DNA from: a virus
Virus record (IMG/VR): IMGVR_UViG_3300006924_000150
Location: 1 to 25,453 of that record
DNA length: 25,453 nucleotides
Direction: 5' to 3' (one strand)
This document shows, piece by piece, positions 2,527 to 22,994 of the stretch. The translations under genes and the position numbers were made by a program. The notes beneath the pieces were generated by a model. That model did no database searches. It saw nothing but the letters and a program-made list of their open reading frames with translations, and had not been told where the DNA came from. Each line of letters opens with the position of its first letter. Position 1 is the stretch's first letter.

Positions 2527-3009
2527 TTACAGTTCTGTAACTACTACTACTGTATTACCATCGCTATCAGTCGTGGTAGTGGTCAATGTGTTAGGAGTAA
2601 CAGTCGTGTCAACTGATTCAGATGTCGATCCACCTTCTGCATACACTTTAGATGCTCCTGTGCTTATCTCATGATCAAAGCCGTTATGACTTCGATTGTA
2701 CTTATCACCAATTCGAGCCATCTGAGATCCTTCGATGAACACTTTAGGCGAATAAGAACTGCAAATAGGTGTATGGTTTACAGGTGCGACAACACAAGGT
2801 TCGCCATTTGGATGTGCAGTCATCGCATCACCCTTAACTACTGGTCTCTTAGTCTCAACATATGTCTTCGAAACTGTGACAGCTCCAGATGTTGATGTCA
2901 GCGCCGAACTCCAAGTATACTTGGTTGGGTTTGTTGCGCATACACCATTCTGCGTTCCATCCGCACAGGCGACATTACTTTGTGCATTCGCAAATGCTAC
3001 TAAAGGCAT
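2527..3009 (-). CDS. PAAR-motif protein, tail spike tip
   Basis: A 160-aa protein with a PAAR-type domain: the segment VFIEGSQMARIGDKYNRSHN (about 89-108) followed by a histidine and ISTGASKVYAEGG is the typical layout in which Cys/His residues bind a metal at the tip of the central spike. T4 gp5.4 is the T4 counterpart. The C-terminal 30 residues are Thr/Val-rich and look like a beta-strand extension. Start at 3009 follows GGTAAGATAA and directly abuts the TAA of the upstream 41-aa gene. As a structural protein it should be late; a TATAAATA octamer on this strand inside phoH (3393-3400) could serve it. PAAR call is good; the exact zinc ligands are not resolved. Confidence 0.82.
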   Translation of the reverse strand: MPLVAFANAQSNVACADGTQNGVCATNPTKYTWSSALTSTSGAVTVSKTYVETKRPVVKGDAMTAHPNGEPCVVAPVNHTPICSSYSPKVFIEGSQMARIGDKYNRSHNGFDHEISTGASKVYAEGGSTSESVDTTVTPNTLTTTTTDSDGNTVVVVTEL

Positions 3010-10174: not shown

Positions 10175-10182
10175 CATAAATA
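10175..10182 (+). promoter_or_regulatory. Probable T4-type late promoter for the plus-strand cassette
   Basis: CATAAATA, seven of eight matches to TATAAATA, 45 nt before the first gene of the plus-strand cassette. No convincing TTGACA/TATAAT pair is present on this strand in the gap, which fits late expression of the cassette. Confidence 0.5.
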
Positions 10183-10226: not shown

Positions 10227-10820
10227 ATGACTAGACTAATTTTACTTTTTGTTATGAGTATGTTCGTGACAGGATTTGTACATGCACAAGAAGCAACAGA
10301 AGATGGAACAACACCAGAAGACCCATCATGCCCAACAGGTTACATATGTACAATATCAAATACAGATAGCACTGTAGACACTAGTGCAGATAGTACGACT
10401 AAAGTGATATCACCGCCACCATCGGCAATTGCACCAAACATTAATACGGCAAACTCCGACTTATGTACAGTCGGTATGTCAGGTGCAGTGCAGACGCAGA
10501 TTTTAGGTTTGTCTGCTGGTAAATCAGTAAGAGACATGAACTGTGAGCGACTTAAAAATGCAAAGACCCTATATGATATGGGGATGAAGGTCGCCGCCGT
10601 CTCTACCATGTGTGGTGACAAAAGAGTATTTAAAGCGATGATGATGGCAGGCACACCCTGTCCATACGATGGCATGATCGGCGCACAAGCAAAGGCGGCA
10701 TGGGAAGAAAACCCAGATATGCAACCTGATGCAAAAGGGAGGTTTATAGATGAAGATAACAAGAGTACCCTATTCGGTGGTGGTATTATTGGCGGCATCT
10801 TGCTTCTACTTTTACTCTAA
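10227..10820 (+). CDS. Exported protein with C-terminal membrane anchor, 197 aa
   Basis: Start ATG at 10227 with GGA five bases upstream; a TTG at 10200 is in frame but unlikely. The N-terminus MTRLILLFVMSMFVTGFVHA is a signal peptide with cleavage after AHA-like VHA. The body contains LCTVGMSGAVQTQILGLSAG, then MNCERLKNAKTLYDMGMKVA and AGTPCPYDG, with several cysteines likely to form disulphides. The C-terminus, LFGGGIIGGILLLLLL, is a membrane segment. The CERLK...YDMGMKVAAVS pattern recurs in marine phage proteins of unknown function. The last 71 nt also encode the start of the next gene in another frame. First gene of the plus-strand cassette. Confidence 0.82.
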   Translation: MTRLILLFVMSMFVTGFVHAQEATEDGTTPEDPSCPTGYICTISNTDSTVDTSADSTTKVISPPPSAIAPNINTANSDLCTVGMSGAVQTQILGLSAGKSVRDMNCERLKNAKTLYDMGMKVAAVSTMCGDKRVFKAMMMAGTPCPYDGMIGAQAKAAWEENPDMQPDAKGRFIDEDNKSTLFGGGIIGGILLLLLL

Positions 10821-11658
10821 TCAGGTAGTCGCCCAAGAGACAACGGGCACAACACCAAACGCCGCCGCAAACGGATTTACGTGGAACATGTTTAGTGTTC
10901 TGCCTGCTCAAGCTGGTCTAACATTCAATGGATTGTTTTACACGTACACGGCAGATAAAGAAACAGAAGATGATTTTACAGTAACTATTCAAAACGAGTA
11001 TGCCAATGGCGTTGGATATGTTATACAGGAGACAGACGATTGGTCTGGTCTACCTGGTGCGACAATTAATAAAAGAATAGATTTACCTAATATCTCACAG
11101 TCAATTGTGGGTGACGGGTCAATAGTTACAACAGGCGAAGGTGAAGTTTTAGATCCTTCGGTAGTATACAGTTTTAGGTTTGACGAGTGTTTTGTTCCCA
11201 TCAGTAACCCCGCATGTCCAGGTTATCAGGACGCACTTTATCAGTACCTATTAGACAACGGGCTTCTAAACAGTGAACCGAGTTTAGATGATCCATTTTA
11301 TGATGAATGGGTTCAGTTTCAACTGAACAGGGATGGTGAAGACAATGCAGAAGATGATGATGAGAAGAAAATTAGAGAAGATACTACCGAGCTTGATGAA
11401 GACGTAGGAATCGAAAAGCTGAATGCGGAAGTTAACATTGATGAATTTGTCGATGGTGCTACGCAGAATGCGATCATAACAGCATTGTCAACAATACCTA
11501 GGTTTGATTTATATACAAGTGCTACCTTAGACGGTGGAGTGTATAATGATGCGGTCACATTAAATGATGGAATTCTAAACGATAATAATAGAGCCTTGAG
11601 ACAATTCGCTACTGATAAAGTGCATAAAGATATGGTACGCTCACAATATGAAAAATAA
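10750..11658 (+). CDS. Secreted phage protein of unknown function, 302 aa
   Basis: ATG at 10750 is marked by a very strong ribosome site (GGGAGG) although it lies 71 nt inside the preceding gene. Residues 1-29 form a signal peptide (hydrophobic SVVVLLAASCFYFYS, cleavage near VVAQ). Next is LPAQAGLTFNGLFYTYTADK (52-71), then 'DDFTVTIQNEYANG' and DDWSGLPG, a pattern I recall from marine T4-like phage proteins. The centre has a strongly acidic stretch (GEDNAEDDDEKKIREDTTEL), and the C-terminal third is beta-rich. Predicted periplasmic, extracellular or virion-associated. No enzyme motif recognised. Confidence 0.85.
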   Translation: MKITRVPYSVVVLLAASCFYFYSNQVVAQETTGTTPNAAANGFTWNMFSVLPAQAGLTFNGLFYTYTADKETEDDFTVTIQNEYANGVGYVIQETDDWSGLPGATINKRIDLPNISQSIVGDGSIVTTGEGEVLDPSVVYSFRFDECFVPISNPACPGYQDALYQYLLDNGLLNSEPSLDDPFYDEWVQFQLNRDGEDNAEDDDEKKIREDTTELDEDVGIEKLNAEVNIDEFVDGATQNAIITALSTIPRFDLYTSATLDGGVYNDAVTLNDGILNDNNRALRQFATDKVHKDMVRSQYEK

Positions 11659-11674
11659 AAAACGGAGATAAAAA

Positions 11675-12187
11675 ATGAATAAAGTTAAACTAACAGCTTT
11701 TGCCTTTTTTACTTGTGGCGCACTCATCACAAGTACAGCGATAGCACAAGATACGCCCATTGTCGGTAATGTAGAGTCAAAATGCTCTATCTTCACTGAT
11801 AGAGAAGGCGTATATGGTAACCCTACACCTGATAAGCTTAGTACAGCAAGCAACAATGGCGGCGTTAAACCAAGAATTAGATATGATATAATTCAAGGTG
11901 GATACTACGAAGCTAGGATTGGTTACCCAGACTCTTTCTCAAGTAGTCCATCACTTGTTGATTCAGTCACTTGGTCAGGTCTCACAGAAGTAGCTGAAGT
12001 TTCAGACACAGCTATGTCAGACTATGAGACAAATAAAGTCGAATACAATAATAAGACTGAATACGATCTTCACACCGCTGGTACAGTATGGTTCGATGTA
12101 TCATCAAATGCAACATACGGTGTTGGTAAATCGTTTCCATCAGGCTCATACACAGCGATGGTAACTGCTGAGTGTATCGCAAAGTAG
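11675..12187 (+). CDS. Exported beta-rich protein, fimbrial-subunit-like, 170 aa
   Basis: Signal peptide MNKVKLTAFAFFTCGALITS ending TAIAQ, then a mature domain of about 145 residues starting DTPIVGNVESKC. Two cysteines (near the mature start and in the C-terminal AECIAK) could form a disulphide joining first and last strands. The end of the domain, FPSGSYTAMVTAEC, resembles the last strand of fimbrial or spore-coat-U-like beta-sandwiches; this is a resemblance by eye, not a proven homology. CGGAG precedes the ATG. The next gene encodes a candidate beta-sandwich partner. Probably virion surface or host envelope. Confidence 0.82.
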   Translation: MNKVKLTAFAFFTCGALITSTAIAQDTPIVGNVESKCSIFTDREGVYGNPTPDKLSTASNNGGVKPRIRYDIIQGGYYEARIGYPDSFSSSPSLVDSVTWSGLTEVAEVSDTAMSDYETNKVEYNNKTEYDLHTAGTVWFDVSSNATYGVGKSFPSGSYTAMVTAECIAK

Positions 12188-12197
12188 GACAAACTAA

Positions 12198-12575
12198 ATG
12201 CGTTTTGTTATTGCTATATTATTTTGGTCTTTGGGGTTAACTTGTGTTGCGCAAGCGCATGAGTTAACTCCGACCTACCCCAAACTGAAACCGTCGGTTT
12301 ACGACAATATTTTGACTACAACAATGGTTATCTTCAATAGAAGATCAGATGTGAACTATTATCAGATTGAAGTATGGGATGCAGATTGGAATAAAGTACC
12401 TTTTGCTAGTTCTGAAAAAATTATTAAGATGAACTATCTTGAACGCAAAAGATTAGAAATATACTTTAAAAATCGTGACGCAAGCAGAATTAAGTACATC
12501 TGCACACGATCAAAATTGTTAAAAGGGGGCGGGCAGTCTGTTGTTGCATCCAACATTTGCTCCAAAGTTAAATAG
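12198..12575 (+). CDS. Exported Ig-like protein, possibly chaperone-like, 125 aa
   Basis: Signal peptide MRFVIAILFWSLGLTCVAQA, mature start HELTPTYPKLKPSVYDNILT. The remaining 100 residues alternate strands: TTMVIFNRRSDVNYYQIEVW (about 40-59), then VPFA, then RLEIYFKNRDASRIKYICTR (91-110). This is the length and pattern of the N-terminal domain of PapD-type periplasmic chaperones (basic residue before the F1 strand, FNR.SD turn), but with no C-terminal domain. AGGA precedes the ATG and the gap to the upstream gene is 10 nt. The chaperone idea is inference. Confidence 0.8.
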   Translation: MRFVIAILFWSLGLTCVAQAHELTPTYPKLKPSVYDNILTTTMVIFNRRSDVNYYQIEVWDADWNKVPFASSEKIIKMNYLERKRLEIYFKNRDASRIKYICTRSKLLKGGGQSVVASNICSKVK

Positions 12576-12582
12576 GTGAATA

Positions 12583-12999
12583 ATGATGAGATATTTAATT
12601 ATTGTTTTATTGATGATAGCGACAAATGCATACGCAGATTCTAGTTCTTTGAACTTAGCACTGCCCAGTATGCCAGGTAACTATCAATCAGACAAGTTTA
12701 GAACTGGAGATTTAGATTGCTCTAATGCAATTGGATCTGCAACGAAGATGGAGATGGGCGTAACGGGTATTATATCAAGAGAGAATCAATCTCCGTTTGC
12801 TCAAGACCCAACAAGTTTCGGGGATAGCCCAAGAGACATAGGTGTATACGCAAGAATTACAATTCCGCTTGGTAAGAGAGTAAAGAATAGAATAAATTGT
12901 AATGAGTTGTATCAATTAGAACTTAGAAAAAAGAGACTCGAAGTAATGAAGCTTGAACGTGAATTGCTACAGATGCAGACGTTAGAATTCGAGAACTAG
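12583..12999 (+). CDS. Exported protein with C-terminal coiled coil, 138 aa
   Basis: Two consecutive ATGs (12583, 12586) after AGGTG; the second has better spacing. Signal peptide MRYLIIVLLMIATNAYA, then SSSLNLALPSMPGNYQSDKF, LDCSNAIGSATKMEMGVTG and GVYARITIPLGKR, and a C-terminal helix from INCNELYQLELRKKRLEV to the end, a clear heptad-like coiled coil (KRLEVMKLERELLQMQ). Two cysteines are placed before the first strand and before the helix. This design resembles a protein I associate with marine phages, function unknown. It may attach to the envelope or virion through the helix. Starts 7 nt after the previous stop. Confidence 0.8.
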   Translation: MMRYLIIVLLMIATNAYADSSSLNLALPSMPGNYQSDKFRTGDLDCSNAIGSATKMEMGVTGIISRENQSPFAQDPTSFGDSPRDIGVYARITIPLGKRVKNRINCNELYQLELRKKRLEVMKLERELLQMQTLEFEN

Positions 13000-13008
13000 A
13001 GGTAAGGA

Positions 13009-13626
13009 ATGGCTAATAAAGATTTAGGTGAAGGAATAGAGAACTTCGAAGAAGAAGTAGAGAACCTTAAAAACACAAAGATGAAACTCTTTGGCATTAC
13101 GATGACGCCAACTACAATCGGTGCGTTGTTTGCATTGCTCGGTACAATTGGTGGCGGTCTTTACGGAGGCTTTGAAGTCTACAAAGACTACATGGATATG
13201 AAAGAGATCATCCAGAACGTTGACACAGACGCTATAGAAGCACGTAACAACGTCATAGAGACTAAACTAGACGAAGCCATAGACTACACAAGAGACATTA
13301 AGGGCGACCTTAAAAATGATATCATCAAACTTGAAGCACAGATCGATAGATTGGAAGACAAGATAGATGAGTCAGAGGTGCGTATCAACTCAACAAAGAA
13401 AGAGATTGATATTACACTAAAAGAAATTAGAACAGAAATGAACACATTACAGAAAGATGTGACTTCTAGTATTAGAGAAGTAGAAAGTATTGTACGTGAA
13501 TCCGAAAAGGGTACACGTAAAGAAATGCGTGATTTGAGAACTAACCTTGAAACTGATATGGATACGCTTGAAAAAGATATGAAAGAAACTGTACAAGAAG
13601 CATTAGATAACCCATTAGCAGATTAA
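13009..13626 (+). CDS. Membrane-anchored long coiled-coil protein, 205 aa
   Basis: Begins MANKDLGEGIENFEEEVENL, followed by one transmembrane helix (about 35-56: TTIGALFALLGTIGGGLYGG) and then 140 residues of nearly continuous coiled coil (IVRESEKGTRKEMRDL, DTLEKDMKETVQEALDN). No signal peptide; an acidic N-terminus with the hydrophobic segment inside suggests an inner-membrane protein with a long rod. The layout fits a lysis or envelope-spanning accessory, or a virion-associated rod; nothing decides. GAGG lies six bases before the ATG. Confidence 0.82.
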   Translation: MANKDLGEGIENFEEEVENLKNTKMKLFGITMTPTTIGALFALLGTIGGGLYGGFEVYKDYMDMKEIIQNVDTDAIEARNNVIETKLDEAIDYTRDIKGDLKNDIIKLEAQIDRLEDKIDESEVRINSTKKEIDITLKEIRTEMNTLQKDVTSSIREVESIVRESEKGTRKEMRDLRTNLETDMDTLEKDMKETVQEALDNPLAD

Positions 13627-13635
13627 GGAGAAATT

Positions 13636-14367
13636 ATGATAGAAAACTCACACAAGATGGCGTTATGCGCCTCTATAGCATACCTAGACGAAGAAGAAGC
13701 ACGACCTAAGTTTCGTGAAATTGGTTTTAGAAAGCACGTATTCATTGAGCGAGATGGCGCTCAGTGTCATATAGTTTGGACTGGACAACAGATAGTACTA
13801 TGCTTTCGTGGAACAGAACCAGGTGAGTTCTCTGATATCAAAGCAGACTTAAATGCTATGCCTGATAAAGCAGACAACGGATCTGGTTGGGTACACAATG
13901 GCTTTCAAACAGAAGTAGATAAAATCTGGGAAGACATTATGAAGCATGTAGACTTAAAACTACATGAGAAGAAAACACTATTAATTTGTGGTCATTCACT
14001 AGGTGGTGCAATGGCGACAATCGCAACAAGTAGATTATGTGATAGAGTATCAGCACTCTTCACATATGGATCACCAAGAGCAGGAACAGGAAAATTTGTC
14101 AAATCTTTTAAACACATACCTCATTATCGTTTTGTTAATAACAATGACGTTGTACCTAAAGTACCCTTCGCTTTCCTCGGATATAGACACACCTGCAAAC
14201 CACAGTACATCAATTACTACGGAAATATTAGATCCGCTACATACTGGCAAAGAGTAAAAGATCAATGGCGTGGTCGTTGGAGAGCATTAAAGAAGGGCAT
14301 GCCTTTCGATGGCGCATACGATCATGGAATGGACCACTATTGTAAATACACTAAGGAGACAAAGTGA
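13636..14367 (+). CDS. Class 3 lipase (alpha/beta hydrolase)
   Basis: A 243-aa Lipase_3 family protein. The nucleophile elbow is GHSLGGA (119-125, Ser121); the acidic residue is in FVNNNDVVPKVP (Asp171); the histidine is in YRHTC (His185). FRGTE (58-62) and WVHNGF (85-90) are typical oxyanion and lid-region motifs of the family. The enzyme should hydrolyse acylglycerol or phospholipid ester bonds. There is no signal peptide, so it needs lysis, holins or virion packaging to reach its substrate. AAGGAG precedes the ATG. Its stop overlaps the GTG start of a cysteine protease gene. Likely acts on host membrane during lysis or entry; inferred. Confidence 0.93.
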   Translation: MIENSHKMALCASIAYLDEEEARPKFREIGFRKHVFIERDGAQCHIVWTGQQIVLCFRGTEPGEFSDIKADLNAMPDKADNGSGWVHNGFQTEVDKIWEDIMKHVDLKLHEKKTLLICGHSLGGAMATIATSRLCDRVSALFTYGSPRAGTGKFVKSFKHIPHYRFVNNNDVVPKVPFAFLGYRHTCKPQYINYYGNIRSATYWQRVKDQWRGRWRALKKGMPFDGAYDHGMDHYCKYTKETK

Positions 14368-14822
14368 CTAGAGAAGAACTAGTAACACGGGACAACATAG
14401 TATCAGACTTCACCAGTAAGTGGAAGTACAGATACGACAAAGAGCAATACGGCTCATCAGATGCTTGGGTCATCATACGTAGCGAAAGCGAAGAAGGCAA
14501 GTTCGAAGGTGACTGCGAAGACTACGCTTTATCACTATTATGGAGACTTTGCGATAAGAAAGACTGGAAGATGTGGTGGATGCTACTTACAAGACAAGCA
14601 GGCATTTGCTGTGTTGGATCATCAAAGACTAAGATCACTCACGCTGTATTAAGATACAAAGGCGACTATGTAGATAACTGGACTCGTAAGTTTGGTCCTA
14701 AGTCTGAGATAGAAAAGAATCATACTTTTCATTTTCTGTATGGGCATGGATTATTTCACTTCACTGTGATTAAAATGCTCACCAGTAAAATTGTAAGAGT
14801 AATAAAAGGTATAAAGAGATAG
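14364..14822 (+). CDS. Transglutaminase-like cysteine protease (BTLCP/C93)
   Basis: GTG start at 14364, overlapping the lipase stop, with AAGGAG before it. The 152-aa product carries GDCEDYALSLLW (49-60, Cys51), HAVLRY (93-98, His93) and VDNW (103-106, Asp104): the Cys-His-Asp triad of bacterial transglutaminase-like cysteine proteinases. Such enzymes cleave periplasmic proteins (for example LapG) or, in phages, act as morphogenesis or lysis proteases. The C-terminal part is basic (VRVIKGIKR) and contains a hydrophobic stretch, with no signal peptide. It sits between lipase and membrane proteins, so an envelope function is likely. Confidence 0.87.
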   Translation: MTREELVTRDNIVSDFTSKWKYRYDKEQYGSSDAWVIIRSESEEGKFEGDCEDYALSLLWRLCDKKDWKMWWMLLTRQAGICCVGSSKTKITHAVLRYKGDYVDNWTRKFGPKSEIEKNHTFHFLYGHGLFHFTVIKMLTSKIVRVIKGIKR

Positions 14823-14831
14823 GAGAACTAA

Positions 14832-15110
14832 ATGGATTTACTTAGCAGAATGATGGGCGATACACTGTGGATTTACACAGCAATCGCTGGATCAGTACTA
14901 GGTGCCGCATTTCTAGCGTACTTCAAAGATACACGTGCAGGACTATGGTGCTATGCCAAGTTAGATCAGACACTTGACTTTTTAGTAGAACGTTGGGGTT
15001 GGACTTGGTTTGAACAACCAACTGACGCATGGCGAAAGAAATATCCTTACGTAACCAAGAAGATTGATGAACTTGAGAAGCGTATCAAGGATCTAGAAGG
15101 GAATGGTTAG
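14832..15110 (+). CDS. Small membrane protein with C-terminal helix, 92 aa
   Basis: ATG at 14832 after AGGAGAACTAA. One transmembrane helix near residues 12-30 (LWIYTAIAGSVLGAAFLAYF), a Trp-rich middle (VERWGWTWFEQPTDAWRKKY), and a charged C-terminal coiled coil (KKIDELEKRIKDLEGN). The Trp-rich, basic part is suited to the membrane interface. Candidate holin or envelope-anchoring protein, but no family recognised. Part of the plus-strand cassette. Confidence 0.75.
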   Translation: MDLLSRMMGDTLWIYTAIAGSVLGAAFLAYFKDTRAGLWCYAKLDQTLDFLVERWGWTWFEQPTDAWRKKYPYVTKKIDELEKRIKDLEGNG

Positions 15111-15112
15111 TT

Positions 15113-15316
15113 ATGACGAATGGCAAAAAAGAATCCTCGATATTCGAGCCCGGATTGCCTATTTACGAAGTTGCATTGAAGGGTCAAAGCGATCCAATTA
15201 CACATCTGCGACACAACGAAGAACTTCATGTCGATCAACAGAGATGGAGAAATCGCCACAAGATGTGGGAAAGTCTGCAAGAAATAAAGAACTTGACAGC
15301 ATCAAAGCAAAGCTAA
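15113..15316 (+). CDS. Small hypothetical protein, 67 aa (frame uncertain)
   Basis: MTNGKKESSIFEPGLPIYEV begins the product, then LKGQSDPITHLRHNEELHVD and a Trp-rich segment RNRHKMWESLQE. ATG at 15113 has AAGGG 11 bases upstream. A second frame (15103-15330, MVSYDEWQKRILDIRARI) covers the same DNA and its stop overlaps the GTG of the next small gene (GTGA), so it could be the expressed one, or both could be. I favour the 15113 frame on ribosome-site spacing and residue composition, moderately. Function unknown. Confidence 0.55.
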   Translation: MTNGKKESSIFEPGLPIYEVALKGQSDPITHLRHNEELHVDQQRWRNRHKMWESLQEIKNLTASKQS

Positions 15317-15326
15317 GAAGAAAGTC

Positions 15327-15428
15327 GTGATAATCGAATACGAGAAAGTATCATACACAAAGAACTTTATATTAGTTTGTTCAATAGGGTTGAATATTGG
15401 TTTTATTATAGGACTATTATTCATATAA
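15327..15428 (+). CDS. Very small membrane protein, 33 aa
   Basis: GTG at 15327, overlapping the stop of the alternative frame by GTGA. Residues 12-32 (NFILVCSIGLNIGFIIGLLF) form one transmembrane helix after a short charged N-terminus (MIIEYEKVSYTK). Ends 13 nt before the next ATG. Small holin-like or regulatory peptides of this size are common in phage lysis cassettes; nothing more can be said. Ribosome site is weak. Confidence 0.5.
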   Translation: MIIEYEKVSYTKNFILVCSIGLNIGFIIGLLFI

Positions 15429-15441
15429 AAAGGAGAAATAA

Positions 15442-15603
15442 ATGAACTGGTTAAAAAATAGATTTACAGAAAGAACTTCACTAGACGGCGTAGTATTAAT
15501 CGGCGTTGGTCTTGTAATCATTCTCGCAGGTCCATTCGCTAAGATTGCCGCTTATGCCGCAATTGGATGGGGCGCTATTACACTGTTTAAAAAGGAAAAA
15601 TAA
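15442..15603 (+). CDS. Small membrane protein, 53 aa
   Basis: ATG at 15442 after AGGAGAAATAA. Starts MNWLKNRFTERTSLDGVVLI, with a hydrophobic segment through VVLIGVGLVIILAGPF and a second one through AKIAAYAAIGWGAITLF, then KKEK. Two short helices with a charged end match the layout of small phage membrane proteins near lysis genes. Its TAA directly abuts the ATG of the EF-hand protein. Function unknown; holin is possible. Confidence 0.72.
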   Translation: MNWLKNRFTERTSLDGVVLIGVGLVIILAGPFAKIAAYAAIGWGAITLFKKEK

Positions 15604-15954
15604 ATGGCTGGTAAGAAGTTAGAAGAAGGCACAACTACCATTGATTCAGAAGCGGCGGCACAGATCGATGCTAATGGCGATGGTCATATCTCAGCAGATG
15701 AGATGGCAATGCACTTAGAGTTTAAACGCAAGCGCCTTGAGGATGAAGATGCTCAACGTGACGCTATGCGTAAGATGACTTGGTTTGCTTTGTTTGGAAT
15801 GCTCTTGTATCCAGCGGGTATTGCTTTGACATCATGGCTAGGGCTAGATGAAGCATCAGGGTTGATTGGTGATATTGCACCGACTTACTTTGTTGCAATC
15901 TCTGCACTAGTATCAGTATTCTTTGGTGCTAACGCATACTCTGCAAACAAATAA
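15604..15954 (+). CDS. EF-hand membrane protein, 116 aa
   Basis: A single canonical EF-hand loop, DANGDGHISADE (22-33, with Asp22, Asn24, Asp26, His28 and Glu33), is followed by a charged helix (FKRKRLEDEDAQRDAMRK) and two transmembrane helices (about 59-77 and 92-110). Calcium binding is expected from the loop; a His at position 7 of the loop is tolerated because its backbone carbonyl binds. Membrane topology with the loop at the N-terminus suggests a Ca-responsive membrane protein, perhaps a holin or virion-associated protein. Last gene of the cassette; the terminator at 15978 follows. Confidence 0.82.
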   Translation: MAGKKLEEGTTTIDSEAAAQIDANGDGHISADEMAMHLEFKRKRLEDEDAQRDAMRKMTWFALFGMLLYPAGIALTSWLGLDEASGLIGDIAPTYFVAISALVSVFFGANAYSANK

Positions 15955-15977: not shown

Positions 15978-15999
15978 GGGAGCTTCGGCTCCCTTTTTT
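15978..15999 (+). terminator. Strong intrinsic terminator, partly bidirectional
   Basis: GGGAGC-TTCG-GCTCCC followed by six T. Flanking AGATTAA (15971-15977) and TTAATCT (15998-16004) extend the symmetry, so the opposing transcript ending at 15998 may also terminate here. Confidence 0.95.
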
Positions 16000-16321
16000 A
16001 ATCTACGAATGGTTCGAAGTCGTAACCATTAGCAACTTGACAAGCCCACCCATTAGGAAATAGTGATACTAAAGACCAAGTACCTGAGTCTTGATTCACA
16101 GTAAATACGAATTCAGAATTTACGTATCTACCGCTTGCGTGTTGCTGTACTATCTTTCCATTGAATAGAACTGATTCATTAAATTGTTTCGCACTAGCCG
16201 CTAAGTCTTGAAGCGTATAGCATTTTTGTGCCGAAAAAAACGGTGGCACTTCATTATTCTCTTGCGCAGTACCTATGTTAGTTGTACACAGTACTGCAAT
16301 TACTGCTATCAAATATTTCAT
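15998..16321 (-). CDS. Exported protein of unknown function, 107 aa
   Basis: Signal peptide MKYLIAVIAVLCTTNIGTAQ, mature part starting ENNEVPPFFSAQKC. The two cysteines (near mature start and in GWACQVANG) and the strand sequence FVFTVNQDSGTWSLVSLFPN match a small secreted protein family I recall from T4-like cyanophages. No enzymatic motif. ATG at 16321 follows AAAGGAATATC. Placed 14 nt after the tail-fibre stop and therefore expressed with it from the late promoter at 19820. It may be a virion-surface or periplasmic accessory. Confidence 0.78.
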   Translation of the reverse strand: MKYLIAVIAVLCTTNIGTAQENNEVPPFFSAQKCYTLQDLAASAKQFNESVLFNGKIVQQHASGRYVNSEFVFTVNQDSGTWSLVSLFPNGWACQVANGYDFEPFVD

Positions 16322-16335
16322 GATATTCCTTTCTC

Positions 16336-19300
16336 TTAGTCGAAGTAAACTATATGAATTACTCCGTCATTACCTGCACCGCTTGAACCACCTATATTTG
16401 CTTCACGTGAAGAACGTGCGAATCCGCCTCCACCTGCTCCATAGAACCCGCCGCCACCAGCGGCATTAAATCCGTTAATAGTTTTTCCACCTGCACCACC
16501 GACACCAGTGATTACACCTAAATGACCGCCTTCAAAAGGAGAAGGAAGTGATTCCTGTCGAACTGCATACCCTTGGTACTCTCTGTAGTCAGGTTGTGCG
16601 GGTGAACCGCCATGTGTACCTATTAATAGACCTGGCTCATCTCCTGCTTGCCCACCTTGTATATTATACAGACCGCCTTCTGCGATGCCACCTGGGACTG
16701 TGATACTAACACCACCGTCGTTAACAACTTGAGCGTGTTTGCCACCTTCGCCACCGTAACCCTTTAGATCAATACCGTTTCCACTCACTATAGTATTTCC
16801 ACCATCAGTACCATTTTCAGCCAGAAAAGATTCACCTTGTGTTTGTAGGGCTCTAGCAGGACCACCGACACCAATAGAGCAAGTAAATGTCATTGAAGTT
16901 GTAACATCCGCAAACACTACTGCCATACCACCTGCTCCACCGCCCCATGCGGCATTCTGATTTTCAGTTCCATCTACTCTTACTAGTCTGCAAGCACCGC
17001 TTCCGCCAGCACCTAATGCTACGATTGCGGCTCTACCGCTTCTAATAGGAGTAAACGAAGTAGCGGGGTTAGTTCTTATGCTAAAGTTCCAATTCTGTTG
17101 GTAGGTATATCCAGTTTCAGAATCTCCCCTAATCAGTGTTACAGCTTCACCGCCAACGAATGCGGGGAACGTTGTAATATTCTGATTTATAGTATCTGGA
17201 TTAACTTCGGATGTGATAGTTACACCATTCAGCACAATGACTAGTGTTGAGTCCCCACCAGAGTTAACCACTTGATTAATTCTCCAATAGGTATCACTTT
17301 GATTATAGGTTGGAAGTGTAGTAGTAACATTCCTATTAATAGTTTGAGTATCTACTATGTCAGCAATTGAAGTTCCTTCTCGAAAGTTACCGTCTGTAGT
17401 ATCAAGAGTTAAAGTGTTCGATGGTTGTGGTTGATTGAAGGTCCAGTAAATTCTTATATTACCGTTTTCAGCACTACCACCTGCATTACCAAATGTAGAA
17501 ACACCAGTAGTTGATAATTCACTAAATCCTGCACCACCCCAATCTGAGTTACCACCCGGCAAGTTTCCATTACTTGCAGTTCCGTATTGTGGTCCTTCAG
17601 TAGTTCCACCTTCGCCACCTCTTAGTAATGTTGGTGAATTACTACCACTAGGTAACTGTAATACACTCTGCGCTGGTATATTTGTTAAGGCGATACCATT
17701 TACCACTGTACCAGATGAGTCTCTCCAGTAAAGTTGACCCTGCCCACCTGTGCCACCAATATTAAAAGCTGGTTCCTGCTGACTCGCAATATGTTGCGTG
17801 GTGCCTACTGATTTTGCGCCGCCTTGCGCAATAAAGTTTGTTAAAGTTCCAGCTGGAGTAAGCCTTACTAAAGTATCTCCACCATCAGTAATATTATCTG
17901 TTTCACCAGCACCAATAAGACCATAAAATCCACTTTGACCTGCGACACCAATTTCATAATTTACACTAGATGGGACTTCGCTACCCTTTACTGCGATTAG
18001 ATACGCACCACCTGCTCCACCAAAGGATTCGCCTCCAGCACTGTTGTTTCCTGCGCCTGCGCCAATTAGATAGAATACAACCCAGTCATCATCACCTATA
18101 GAAGAAGGTTTAGTCCAAGTGCTACCATCAATTAAAGTCTGATCAGGAAGGTTCCAGAATGGTACGGGTGGCACATCTCCTGTAACAGGAGCGGGATCAG
18201 GTCCGTAGATTGTGCCATTATCTGTTAGAGTAATTGTAGTACCAGTTGCTTGCGTAATAGGCTGTCCACCTGCTCCGCCAAACGAAGCGGCTTTACCCCA
18301 CGCTCCTCCACCAGTCGCACCGTTGCCTGCTGTATTTTCTACGTTTGTGCCACCAGGTGTATTGAATGTTGAAGATAGAATTCGCCCGCCACCTGCACCA
18401 GGTATATTTTGAGTAGTGTTACCTCCTTGACCACCGCAAGCATCACCAAAAGCACCTGCTTCTCCGATTCCACCAGGTGTGCCCCGATTTGGAAAATTAG
18501 GATTGTTTCCTGCGCCAGTGCCGCCTCCTGCTCCACCGCCACCAAGCGCACTAGCGCCACCGCCACCACCGCCAGCTATAAATCCTGTAGAGTTGTTAAT
18601 GATGCTTAGACTAGTAGGTCCACCAGATAGAATTTGTAAAGCTGGACCACCAGGATTACTATTACCATCTCCACCTTTACCAGCGATTTTTCCGTTGTTG
18701 ATTATAGTAACAGGTTGTGAAGACGGAAAGTCTCCGTCTATGATAAGCCCACCTTTAGTAGTATCATCTGAGTACAACCATATATCATTACCAGCATTAT
18801 CTTTTTCTCTGACTGTAACTGTAAGAGGAGTTGTTCCTGTCCATCCTTCTGCGACAGCCCAGTCGTATAAGTTTAACTCTTGATAAGTTTGATCGATTAT
18901 AAAAATCAGATTCTCACCTTGACCACGATAATCAGATAGACTTAGACCTGTGCTACCGTATGCAGGTATATTGTCTGTATTACCACCAGGTAGAATAAAA
19001 GAGTTTGGAATATTAGAATGCATACCAGCTTGACTGCTTGTAAGCATAGAAGGAACATTGTTATCGTCATTCCATAAACATAGGTAAGCATTTGCTGTTT
19101 CAGTACGTCTAACAAAATGTTCTAATTCACGTGGAGGTCCTAATGTAAATGACTTACCTCTAACCCAACCCCAAATATCCCAAGTACCCGTACCTGTTCT
19201 TGTTGGTATAATATTTTTTGTTTCTGTTGTCTCAACACCAGTTACTCTGTCTACTGTTGTTGTAGTAATACCAGCACTAGTGATAACCTCACCATCAGAA

Positions 19301-19785
19301 TTTGGTATAGTTGTAAGAAGGGTGTATTCGAAATTGTGTGCTATCGTAGGCATTGTGAAGACAAGAACCCAATTACCACTAGTGTTTTGATACCCTATTC
19401 GATACTTAGTTATGAGTTGTGCGCCGACAGCTATATTTTTGTATGGCGTTTTGGCATCACTGAATTGTCCACCAAAGCCTTGACTTCTATTAAGAATATC
19501 AAGCCCAGTATCTTCGTGTGCGTATATCGCCATACCTTCATCGACTTTATCACCATCTTCAGCAGATACAACCATACTAAAGAACTCAGGCTTTGCTTTA
19601 CCACGTACTAGATTCCCTGCTATTTCAGTTGAACCTGTGATATGACCAGACATATATCCGTTGCGTAAACCTTCTTCGAGGTTATTGACTGTTTGTACAC
19701 AAGTTATTTGAGCAGAACTTCTACCTGAGTAAAACTCAGTTCGCAAATCACCAATTGATATTGCTCCAGATGATGGTAGTGTCAT
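16336..19785 (-). CDS. Tail fibre / adhesin with glycine-rich modules, 1149 aa
   Basis: Starts MTLPSSGAISIGDLRTEFYS, a typical N-terminus of phage tail fibres and adhesins. Residues 1-365 include beta-rich segments such as TGTGTWDIWGWVRGKSFTLG. Then come three glycine-rich modules: about 365-505 (INNSTGFIAGGGGGG), 575-775 (GAGAGNNSAGGESFGGAGGA, ending ENGNIRIYW) and 920-1149 (GAGGSGACRLVRVDG, ending GNDGVIHIVYFD). Modules 2 and 3 share start and end patterns, indicating internal duplication. Polyglycine folds like these are used by distal receptor-binding proteins of T4-like phages. ATG has AGAAGG upstream and a perfect late octamer 35 nt away. Receptor is unknown. Confidence 0.9.
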   Translation of the reverse strand: MTLPSSGAISIGDLRTEFYSGRSSAQITCVQTVNNLEEGLRNGYMSGHITGSTEIAGNLVRGKAKPEFFSMVVSAEDGDKVDEGMAIYAHEDTGLDILNRSQGFGGQFSDAKTPYKNIAVGAQLITKYRIGYQNTSGNWVLVFTMPTIAHNFEYTLLTTIPNSDGEVITSAGITTTTVDRVTGVETTETKNIIPTRTGTGTWDIWGWVRGKSFTLGPPRELEHFVRRTETANAYLCLWNDDNNVPSMLTSSQAGMHSNIPNSFILPGGNTDNIPAYGSTGLSLSDYRGQGENLIFIIDQTYQELNLYDWAVAEGWTGTTPLTVTVREKDNAGNDIWLYSDDTTKGGLIIDGDFPSSQPVTIINNGKIAGKGGDGNSNPGGPALQILSGGPTSLSIINNSTGFIAGGGGGGASALGGGGAGGGTGAGNNPNFPNRGTPGGIGEAGAFGDACGGQGGNTTQNIPGAGGGRILSSTFNTPGGTNVENTAGNGATGGGAWGKAASFGGAGGQPITQATGTTITLTDNGTIYGPDPAPVTGDVPPVPFWNLPDQTLIDGSTWTKPSSIGDDDWVVFYLIGAGAGNNSAGGESFGGAGGAYLIAVKGSEVPSSVNYEIGVAGQSGFYGLIGAGETDNITDGGDTLVRLTPAGTLTNFIAQGGAKSVGTTQHIASQQEPAFNIGGTGGQGQLYWRDSSGTVVNGIALTNIPAQSVLQLPSGSNSPTLLRGGEGGTTEGPQYGTASNGNLPGGNSDWGGAGFSELSTTGVSTFGNAGGSAENGNIRIYWTFNQPQPSNTLTLDTTDGNFREGTSIADIVDTQTINRNVTTTLPTYNQSDTYWRINQVVNSGGDSTLVIVLNGVTITSEVNPDTINQNITTFPAFVGGEAVTLIRGDSETGYTYQQNWNFSIRTNPATSFTPIRSGRAAIVALGAGGSGACRLVRVDGTENQNAAWGGGAGGMAVVFADVTTSMTFTCSIGVGGPARALQTQGESFLAENGTDGGNTIVSGNGIDLKGYGGEGGKHAQVVNDGGVSITVPGGIAEGGLYNIQGGQAGDEPGLLIGTHGGSPAQPDYREYQGYAVRQESLPSPFEGGHLGVITGVGGAGGKTINGFNAAGGGGFYGAGGGGFARSSREANIGGSSGAGNDGVIHIVYFD

Positions 19786-19850: not shown

Positions 19851-19926
19851 TGGTGCGCCTGATATGATTCGAACATATGACTTTCGGTTTCGTAGACCGA
19901 TACTCTATCCACTGAGTTACAGGCGC
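19851..19926 (-). tRNA. tRNA-Arg (ACG)
   Basis: Complete cloverleaf on the minus strand: acceptor GCGCCTG/CAGGCGC, D-loop ACTCAGTGGATAGAGT, anticodon stem TCGGT/ACCGA around CTACGAA (anticodon ACG), T-loop TTCGAAT. CCA is encoded (TGG at 19851-19853). The last tRNA of the operon. Confidence 0.96.
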
Positions 19927-19929
19927 AGA

Positions 19930-20266
19930 TATAAATGTGTGGGTAGGACTTGGGAGTACCTACATCTACTCGCACTGAACGCTCCCGTCAACTGGCTTTC
20001 GAACTTTCTTGCATCCGCTAGGACAGGGCGCTACCCTCTTCAGAAATACCTTATACGCACGATCACGTATTTTTCAGTCACCACGATCTTACTCCGTCGA
20101 GTAAAAACTTTGAATATGGCCCGCCCTATACTTTTGGTATAATAAAGTATTCCTCTCTTCTCCTGATCGACGGGCAATCAGAGCGTAGGTTGTTTCATAT
20201 TATCAGAGAATGGTTAAACAACCCAAACACACACTCTCTGTCCCCACTACTTAATCGTAGCAGAGA
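19930..20266 (-). ncRNA. Hairpin-rich non-coding interval in the tRNA operon
   Basis: About 340 bases without a plausible gene. Several stems are visible: GGTTGTTT/AAACAACC (20188-20195 with 20216-20223), TCTCTG/CAGAGA (20235-20240 with 20261-20266) enclosing CTAC/GTAG (20247-20250, 20257-20260), CTGAT/ATCAG (20163-20167, 20177-20181), TTACTC-GACG-GAGTAA near 20087-20102, and ATACG/CGTAT near 20051-20068. It does not fit a tRNA. T4 has stable RNAs of unknown function in its tRNA cluster; this may be similar. Strand assigned by operon direction. Confidence 0.35.
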
Positions 20267-20270
20267 AATC

Positions 20271-20347
20271 TGGTCTCAGTGGATGGATTCGAACCACCGA
20301 CATCTACGTCCCAAACGTAGCGGTCTACCAGACTGACCTACACTGAG
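20271..20347 (-). tRNA. tRNA-Pro (TGG)
   Basis: Acceptor CTCAGTG/CACTGAG, anticodon stem CTACG/CGTAG around TTTGGGA (anticodon TGG), T arm GGTGG-TTCGAAT-CCATC, encoded CCA. 77 nt, as usual for this tRNA. Its first 23 nt also form the 3' end of the small gene at 20325-20495. Confidence 0.96.
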
Positions 20348-20495
20348 TTTCTTCGTCTTCACTGAAGCTATCACTTAATATAGCTTCTGTAATCTTACAA
20401 TTGTACTCAGTATCATAAGTATCATATTTAGTAAATCTTAGCTCTCCAACGTCTGGACCAAAACTAATCATCGATACTATATATAACACCCACAT
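20325..20495 (-). CDS. Small protein, 56 aa, overlapping tRNA-Pro
   Basis: ATG at 20495 has AAGGA (20504-20508) eight bases upstream; that site sits between the end of tRNA-Met/Ile and the ATG. The product begins MWVLYIVSMISFGPDVGELR and continues FTKYDTYDTEYNCKITEAIL, with an acidic tail ending CRSVW. A short hydrophobic N-terminus is present but too short for a firm signal call. The MWVLY...KYDTYDTEYNCKIT style recalls small phage ORFs, function unknown. The last seven codons and stop lie inside tRNA-Pro, so RNase P maturation would cut this message. Confidence 0.6.
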   Translation of the reverse strand: MWVLYIVSMISFGPDVGELRFTKYDTYDTEYNCKITEAILSDSFSEDEETQCRSVW

Positions 20496-20513
20496 CTACT
20501 TAATCCTTGTTCT

Positions 20514-20588
20514 TGGTGCGAGAGGCAGGGTTCGAACCTACGACCTGGACGTTATGAGCGTCTTGCTCTACCACTAAGCTACTCTCGC
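20514..20588 (-). tRNA. tRNA with CAT anticodon (Met, or Ile2 if modified)
   Basis: Acceptor GCGAGAG/CTCTCGC, D-loop GCTTAGTGGTAGAGC, anticodon loop CTCATAA (CAT), T arm GTAGG-TTCGAAC-CCTGC, encoded CCA. One A-C mismatch at the top of the anticodon stem. Sequence alone does not separate elongator Met from lysidine-modified Ile. Confidence 0.93.
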
Positions 20589-20598
20589 ACATTATTCT

Positions 20599-20683
20599 TG
20601 GTGCGAGTGAGAGGACTTGAACCTCCACGTCTTGCGACACTAGAACCTAAATCTAGCGTGTCTACCAATTCCACCACACTCGC
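20599..20683 (-). tRNA. tRNA-Leu (TAG)
   Basis: Acceptor GCGAGTG/CACTCGC, anticodon stem CTAGA/TCTAG around TTTAGGT (TAG), long variable arm (TGTCGCAAGACGT) typical of Leu, T arm GGAGG-TTCAAGT-CCTCT, encoded CCA. First tRNA of the operon. Confidence 0.96.
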
Positions 20684-22468: not shown

Positions 22469-22476
22469 TATAAATA
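22469..22476 (+). promoter_or_regulatory. T4-type late promoter for the putative endolysin
   Basis: Exact TATAAATA. The expected late start site is about six bases downstream, almost on the ATG at 22482, so the message could be leaderless. Confidence 0.7.
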
Positions 22477-22481
22477 TGTAT

Positions 22482-22994
22482 ATGAAGAAGATAATAGTAT
22501 TTCTTTTACTATGTGCTTGTGATACGACCGCTATAGAATCCTTTAATAAACCAATCCCGACATACCCACACTATCTCAAAACTGCTGATGCGTTTGTCGG
22601 CTTCAACGAGACGGCAAACAGGAATGATCTAAGGACTTTATTAAAGATTGACCCAGTCTCATACGAGTGGTGCGCCGCTTTCGTAAACGCAATTCTGCGG
22701 GTTAATAAAATCCCAGGCTCTGATAGTGTCAACGACTATCCGTTCATGGCACGTAGCTTTCTCTTTTGGGGAGAGCCCGTTGATGAACCACGACTAGGAG
22801 ATATAGTTGTATTCTCTAGAGGCAACCAAGGCTGGCAAGGTCACGTAGGGTTCTATATCTATCCCGTGTCGATAGAAGGTGAAGATCATTACGTCATACT
22901 AGGTGGCAACCAAGATGACAAAGTTTCTTATGACACATATCCTGTATCTAAAGTGTTAGACATCAGACGTTCAGTATATACCGACATAAACTAG
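22482..22994 (+). CDS. CHAP/NlpC-type (TIGR02594-like) lipoprotein, putative endolysin
   Basis: A 170-aa protein counted from ATG 22482 (MKKIIVFLLLCAC); ATG 22476 is in frame but overlaps the promoter octamer. The start is a signal with a possible lipobox (LCAC). The catalytic domain has YEWCAAFVNAIL (Cys), GHVGFY (His) and ILGGNQDDKVS (Asn), the Cys-His-Asn order of TIGR02594/CHAP proteins, which cleave peptidoglycan peptide or amide bonds. It is likely exported to the periplasm by a signal-anchor or lipoprotein route. No ribosome site is visible before either ATG. Most likely a lysis enzyme; a role in virion entry is an alternative. Confidence 0.82.
   Translation: MKKIIVFLLLCACDTTAIESFNKPIPTYPHYLKTADAFVGFNETANRNDLRTLLKIDPVSYEWCAAFVNAILRVNKIPGSDSVNDYPFMARSFLFWGEPVDEPRLGDIVVFSRGNQGWQGHVGFYIYPVSIEGEDHYVILGGNQDDKVSYDTYPVSKVLDIRRSVYTDIN

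Follow-up and report, generated by a model that had tools for sequence, protein, structure and literature searches.

Four described systems come closest to the locus considered here. T5 Llp is a receptor-blocking lipoprotein that is exported and acts at the outer membrane. Chaperone-usher pili are built with a PapD/FimC-type chaperone of two Ig-like domains, whose gene adjoins that of a pilus subunit (FimA- or CsuA/B-type pilins). Two-component spanins (Rz/Rz1), reviewed in PMC6139136, pair an o-spanin lipoprotein with an i-spanin whose single membrane segment is N-terminal and whose coiled coil lies in the periplasm. A curli (type VIII secretion) operon is known from pelagimyophages, HTVC023P-type pelagiphages and the methylophage Melnitz (PMC7029224, PMC9599517, PMC9004378), and a role in “sibling capture” has been proposed for it (PMC7029224). 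Here, we describe a cassette of six consecutive genes (g1–g6) in a viral fragment of 25,453 bases, IMG/VR record IMGVR_UViG_3300006924_000150 (the window, meaning the whole of this fragment), of which an earlier note had singled out the first five. The cassette is found in hundreds of marine and freshwater bacterial viruses. We hold its anatomy with high confidence; the account as a whole, in which g1–g6 form a late, phage-specific module building a structure in the Gram-negative envelope, is tentative and in our judgment falls slightly short of an even chance.

Each described system shares some properties with the cassette. Like an i-spanin, g6 has one N-terminal membrane segment followed by a periplasmic coiled coil and lies near lysis genes; unlike the two-component spanins, the cassette has no o-spanin lipoprotein, comprises six genes instead of two, and encodes additional disulfide-type proteins. 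Its products, like T5 Llp, are predicted to be exported and may act at the outer membrane, and T5-related Vibrio phages carry the trio g3-g4-g5 together with a small lipoprotein gene, but Llp is a lipoprotein whereas g1–g5 are not, and the cassette is a multigene late set. Phage curli are likewise an exported set in marine phages suggesting a surface fiber or envelope pore, but the cassette consists of other protein families, lacks CsgG, and forms a late operon often near an endolysin. Identity with the curli operon was rejected because the CsgG pore (PF03783) had no match in 18 records. The open-access literature yielded no description of a phage-encoded chaperone-pilin set or of this exported cassette. 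The module as a whole resembles no system we can name, and only the g3-g4 pair appears, from structural models, akin to a known kind at the level of fold. We put forward, with some doubt, an undescribed class: a chaperone-subunit module that is expressed late, has no usher, and is tied to the inner membrane, and that would build a structure across the envelope as infection ends, serving release or control of the outer surface in T4-type and other virulent aquatic phages.

Anatomy and conservation of the cassette

Relatives were retrieved from IMG/VR using g5 (205 relatives) and g1 (more than 590) as queries, the best 80 of each were taken further, and a profile hidden Markov model grown from each window gene was run over 174 loci. 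Conservation of the gene set had been named beforehand as a check capable of refuting the earlier proposal; each of the six families was detected in 146–153 loci, and all six occur together in 125. The set had been thought to comprise five genes ending at position 12999, a boundary that has to be moved, because g6 adjoins g5 and is found in 146 of the 174 loci and so belongs to the cassette (Table 1). The complete cassettes, which include 102 distinct g4 proteins, lie on one strand in 125/125 cases and keep the same gene order in 124/125, with median intergenic gaps of −71 (g1/g2), +11, −11, +3, and +9 nt and identities to the window proteins of ∼31–72% across loci. Incomplete loci are mostly short fragments, Vibrio phages with g3-g4-g5 only, or pelagiphages and roseophages with g1 and, in some, g6. 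By profile search, each record that carries g1 or g3 has a single copy of it. Most of the changes separating the window from its close relative L009 are synonymous, with ratios of nonsynonymous to synonymous rates of 0.03–0.13 (g4, 0.41 on only 13 changes), and the sequences suggest no strong diversification of the cassette genes. Among ∼85,000 bacterial and archaeal genomes, g5 had only three matches, all on contigs of metagenome-assembled genomes; this near-absence argues for a trait of virulent phages and not for lysogenic conversion. A six-gene block conserved in order across hundreds of phages and unnamed in Pfam, NCBIfam, and PHROGs would point to a general, unstudied envelope step of infection.

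Table 1. Features of the six-gene cassette and its surroundings (positions in the window)
Feature	Position	Strand	Description
Candidate late promoter CATAAATA	10175..10182	+	7/8 match to T4-type TATAAATA, 45 nt before g1; read in the sequence
g1	10227..10820	+	197 aa; predicted exported; linker rich in Ser/Thr/Asn, core domain with 4 Cys, hydrophobic anchor at the C-terminus
g2	10750..11658	+	302 aa; predicted exported; acidic (51 D/E vs 18 K/R)
g3	11675..12187	+	170 aa; predicted exported pilin-like beta-sandwich subunit
g4	12198..12575	+	125 aa; predicted exported single-domain PapD-like chaperone candidate
g5	12583..12999	+	138 aa; small predicted exported protein with C-terminal helix
g6	13009..13626	+	Predicted inner-membrane protein; a single transmembrane segment precedes a long coiled coil in the periplasm; ends in NPLAD
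Class 3 lipase	13636..14367	+	Next operon gene after g6; Pfam Lipase_3, 4.6e-23; accessory, 20/174 loci
C93-like peptidase	14364-14822	+	Weak; Pfam Peptidase_C93, 5.7e-4, below curated cutoff; accessory, 10 loci
Small membrane proteins	14832-15110, 15442-15603, 15604-15954	+	With the peptidase, remainder of the operon (14364..15954); holin-like by eye
Exported protein, optional accessory	15998..16321	-	Family in 19 loci; seventh predicted exported protein

Searches of Pfam, NCBIfam, PHROGs, and PDB sequence profiles returned no match with a function for any of g1–g6. The product of g1 matches phrog_20531, which has no annotated function (6.5e-15), and that of g5 matches phrog_37374 (1.6e-7), while g2, the acidic secreted protein of the earlier note, has no functional match in Pfam, PHROG, or NCBIfam; database matches of g6 were dismissed as coiled-coil noise. 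The C-terminal hydrophobic anchor of g1 is present in 60/67 members. Its coding sequence is overlapped in another frame by that of the g2 signal peptide, and this g1/g2 overlap (71 nt in the window) is kept in 125/125 full cassettes, with a median of 71 nt. An N-terminal transmembrane-like segment is found in 63/64 members of g6, and 61/64 end in NPL plus at most three residues.

The five adjacent reading frames with signal peptides described by the earlier note, which all lie on the plus strand, were recovered by a signal-peptide test, a simple score of hydrophobicity and cleavage motif, which was positive for all of g1–g5. The only other long open reading frames (ORFs) of the window to be flagged were 15998-16321(-), 22476-22994(+), and the lipase, the last apparently a false positive. 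In related loci, positives were obtained for g1 in 52/67, g2 in 52/82, g3 in 75/76, g4 in 81/86, and g5 in 70/73, against a background of 16–20% among 1443 flanking ORFs. The families g1–g5 have 4, 2, 2, 2, and 2 invariant cysteines, respectively, in 100% of aligned members: C80, C106, C129, and C145 in g1, C147 and C156 in g2, and C37 and C167 in g3 (45/45 each), a pair in the predicted F and G strands, the last two, of g4 (45/45), and C46 and C106 in g5 (30/30). No cysteine is conserved across aligned members of g6. Even numbers of invariant cysteines in g1–g5 and none in g6 would be expected if g1–g5 fold in an oxidizing compartment, and together with the signal peptides they support the prediction that g1–g5 are exported. 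A lipobox is nearly absent from these signal peptides (g1, 0/67; g2, 1/82; g3, 0/76; g4, 2/86; g5, 6/73).

Late expression, as the earlier note had it, finds support in T4-type late promoters at the start of the cassette. An exact TATAAATA lies near the g1 start in 42/99 cassettes compared with 50/1070 other genes of the same loci (Fisher p 1.5e-24, the loci being only partly independent), and it was seen upstream of g1 in 29/67 cases when 1.9 were expected from shuffled upstream sequences. Because this motif occurs at g1 and near g2, g3, g5, and g6 in no cassette, the promoter pattern supports g1–g6 being one late operon. The window has no exact copy at g1, only the 7/8 match listed in Table 1; sigma-70-type promoters in the region are no commoner than in shuffles. 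The rightward operon begins at g1 and points away from leftward genes of DNA metabolism (PhoH-like, two exonucleases, glycosyltransferase). A PAAR-motif protein (2527-3009, minus strand; phrog_281), likely the tail spike tip, four tRNA genes (Arg, Pro, Met, and Leu; 19851-20683, minus strand), and the late-promoter usage of relatives fit a T4-type myovirus as the source. A gp23-type capsid gene was not found in the window fragment, so this lineage is inferred; T4 major capsid gp23 was found in 6/16 other contigs searched.

Two parts of the cassette occur separately in cultured phages. The trio g3-g4-g5 is carried alone, in the same order, by Vibrio phages of several kinds: the T5-like Ceto and pVp-1, the 83-kb K478a type, and the 60-kb D96a and 1.205.O types. 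Two long genes precede the trio and a small lipoprotein gene follows it, and in Ceto and pVp-1 a holin and an M15 endolysin are nearby. Homology between the window and Vibrio trios is supported in three ways, by single-comparison hhalign (g3, 1.6e-6; g4, 1.5e-4; g5, 2.5e-10), by PHROG matches of the window trio, which fall in three matching Vibrio families (weakly for g4 and g3, at E 0.0047 and 0.11), and by the marine g3 profile, which recovers pVp-1 at E 2e-5. Searches of named phages by tblastn with g2, g3, and g4 returned nothing, and it was g5, together with gene order, that led to the Vibrio relatives. In pelagiphages and a roseophage, g1 is present (hhalign 1.5e-47), as is a g6-like protein with a membrane segment (1e-7), the latter directly followed by M15 in HTVC023P. 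The long acidic pelagiphage protein (HTVC023P gp46, Mosig_201) was considered as a homologue of g2 on the basis of a C-terminal likeness seen by eye; with an hhalign E of 0.049, it was set aside as a positional counterpart only. Both parts are thus experimentally accessible, the trio in Ceto and pVp-1 and g1 with the g6-like gene in cultured pelagiphages. In Ceto, gp146 (L002:7657-8064) has been annotated from a start that lies too far downstream; the ORF that includes the signal peptide encodes 135 aa. The small lipoprotein gene after g5 in Vibrio phages (phrog_16916; Ceto L002:8305-8508 and equivalents) may belong to the Vibrio form as its fourth gene.

Predicted folds of g3 and g4

Models of g3 and g4 were built with AlphaFold2 and compared with the PDB using Foldseek. 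The mature part of g4, ∼105 residues after the signal peptide, is modeled confidently as a single domain (predicted local distance difference test (pLDDT), 89.2; predicted template modeling score (pTM), 0.79). Its five best PDB matches are all pilus chaperones (PapD, SfaE, SafB, and FaeE twice; E 2.5e-4 to 7.5e-4), in alignments spanning about the length of the chaperone N-domain. The model thus bears out the Ig-like protein with a PapD-N pattern that had been read from the sequence, its fold being closest to N-domains of PapD-type chaperones, and g4 can be called PapD-N-like with good confidence. FGL-type chaperones have an F1–G1 disulfide similar to the cysteine placement in g4. The family did not reach Pfam PapD_N. 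In an hhalign comparison, a C-terminal K-x-R-L-Y-x-P of the Vibrio forms of g4 falls under the chaperone R/K-I-K-L-Y-Y-R-P, and the link at the level of sequence is only suggestive. A copper-binding role for g4 (CopC-like, with the N-terminal His of the mature marine forms) was dropped, as the Vibrio relatives lack this His.

The g3 model is likewise a confident single domain (pLDDT 90.6, pTM 0.76). Pilins recur among its Foldseek matches (the PapG pilin domain, CfaB, FimF, FimG, CsuA/B, and PapA) alongside MSCRAMM adhesins and archaeal cannulae, and nothing below 1e-3 was found among viral models. A Gly at position −14 from the C-terminus is present in 50/50 g3 proteins and in 15/15 E. coli K-12 pilins, whereas the penultimate residue is Ala in 48/50 and not Tyr as in pilins. 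Residues 25–36 form a lower-confidence coil, only a short extension precedes the first Cys, and a clear N-terminal donor-strand extension is not seen. We regard g3 as pilin-like with moderate confidence.

As in chaperone-usher pili, g4 is modeled with a chaperone N-domain fold, its conserved cysteines falling in the predicted F and G strands, g3 is modeled as a beta-sandwich and has the Gly at −14, and the chaperone and subunit genes adjoin. The differences are that g4 has one domain, resembling only the N-domain of the two-domain chaperone, that there is one subunit gene, that g3 lacks the penultimate Tyr, and that four further, unrelated exported or anchored proteins are encoded, in virulent phages. 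The usher (PF00577) went unmatched at E ≤ 1 across 16 phage records, a set that includes six full records from cultured Vibrio phages, and the cassette is for that reason not a chaperone-usher pilus. A bacterial pilus operon acquired by a phage was rejected on the same absence and on the near lack of relatives in bacterial genomes. The chaperone-assembled envelope structure imagined in the earlier note survives in part: predicted export, a PapD-N-like g4, and a pilin-like g3 speak for it, and the missing usher, the single g3, and the lack of a clear donor extension against a classical chaperone-assembled fiber. If g4 and g3 are a true chaperone-subunit pair, virulent phages would possess a form of donor-strand assembly that has no usher.

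Possible roles in the envelope

In the mechanism we propose, g4 would act as a one-domain periplasmic chaperone, lending a strand to the pilin-like g3 and in this way folding or capping it, g1 through its C-terminal anchor and g6 through its N-terminal anchor and coiled coil would tie the assembly to the inner membrane, and g2 and g5 would complete it toward the outer membrane. Its job may be that of an envelope-spanning complex weakening or reshaping the outer membrane for virion exit as infection ends, beside holin and endolysin, a role we infer and consider possible but rather doubtful. Outer-membrane weakening or release is nevertheless our first choice, ahead of receptor shielding or an adhesive fiber, on the grounds that the cassette is timed late and targeted to the envelope, includes an inner-membrane coiled coil, lies close to lysis genes, and is followed in this window by the lipase and small membrane proteins. 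In 52 loci, a cell-wall hydrolase is encoded ∼3 kb ahead of g4, on its upstream side.

Several observations weigh against this account. Neighborhood is weak functional evidence, as terminase and tail-fiber genes adjoin too (tail-fiber and tail-fiber-assembly genes lie upstream in 20–21 loci, and terminase genes are often downstream). The cassette has no o-spanin-type lipoprotein, a lipobox being present in 0–6 members per family, and a small lipoprotein-like ORF is near only 24/125 cassettes. In some Vibrio carriers, small lipoproteins resembling Rz1 are encoded separately, next to the endolysin, and these phages would therefore not need another outer-membrane disruptor. In sequence, g4 matches chaperones weakly (hhalign E 0.0056, spanning 127 columns), and g3 had no Foldseek match below E 1e-3, which leaves its fold likeness not significant alone; of the fimbrial-subunit-like protein first described, the beta fold, the Gly at −14, and the pilin matches stand, without that significance.

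The alternative that survives best, though we think it unlikely, is that, late in infection, the exported proteins cover or modify the outer membrane, masking receptors against rival phages or keeping released progeny from sticking to debris, with T5 Llp as the model. Such a shield would suit the position of the Vibrio trio after two long tail-fiber-looking genes and before a small lipoprotein gene, the porin-like gene upstream of g1 in 14 IMG/VR loci, and the barrel-like protein of a PagP-related PHROG between g5 and g6 in some loci. However, neither of the two long Vibrio genes has a named function, and the porin-like gene is without a match in Pfam or NCBIfam. Classical exclusion would call for earlier expression than a late promoter gives, and a factor matched to a receptor would not be expected to show the strong conservation of g3 and g5 among many phages.

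More improbable is an adhesive extracellular fiber in which g3 polymerizes with the help of g4, clumping cells or keeping new hosts near. Unrelated marine phages do encode a curli secretion operon (PMC7029224, PMC9599517), and the pilin-like features of g3 and the chaperone-like fold of g4 agree with a fiber, but neither an usher nor CsgG was found for its export, and g3 is single copy, shows no clear donor-strand extension, and is accompanied by no adhesin-like subunit. It is very unlikely that the proteins, once exported, attach to virions during or after lysis, decorating heads or tails, for instance: the late operon and the nearby tail-fiber and terminase genes would allow it, but virions assemble in the cytoplasm, whereas five of these proteins have signal peptides and disulfide-type cysteines, and no structural family was matched. 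Least credible of all is that separate exported late genes travel together for transcriptional convenience, since, even with the two sub-modules occurring apart (g3-g4-g5 in Vibrio phages, g1 with a g6-like gene in pelagiphages), the order is kept in nearly all complete cassettes despite divergent sequences and a conserved g1/g2 overlap.

Neighboring genes

Downstream of g6, the lipase is possibly a lysis factor attacking phospholipids. The last small membrane protein of the operon (15604-15954) contains one EF-hand (9.3e-5, below the curated cutoff) followed by two membrane segments and is found in 58/174 loci. The family of the optional exported accessory lies immediately upstream of g1, on the cassette strand, in 14 loci.

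The porin-like exported protein, which ends in SFAF (e.g., L022:3716-4585), lies directly upstream of g1 in 13 of its 14 loci; a phage-encoded outer-membrane barrel would be notable. The small barrel-like protein (L050:7417-7776), present in 17 loci and in many of them between g5 and g6, matches its PagP-related PHROG at 3.7e-11. Elsewhere in the window, a glycine-rich protein of 1149 aa (16336-19785, minus strand), which has no PHROG match, is tail-fiber-like by eye. An exported protein encoded at 22476-22994 (plus strand), with TATAAATA at 22469, matches tail-lysozyme and endolysin PHROGs and is a candidate exported endolysin.

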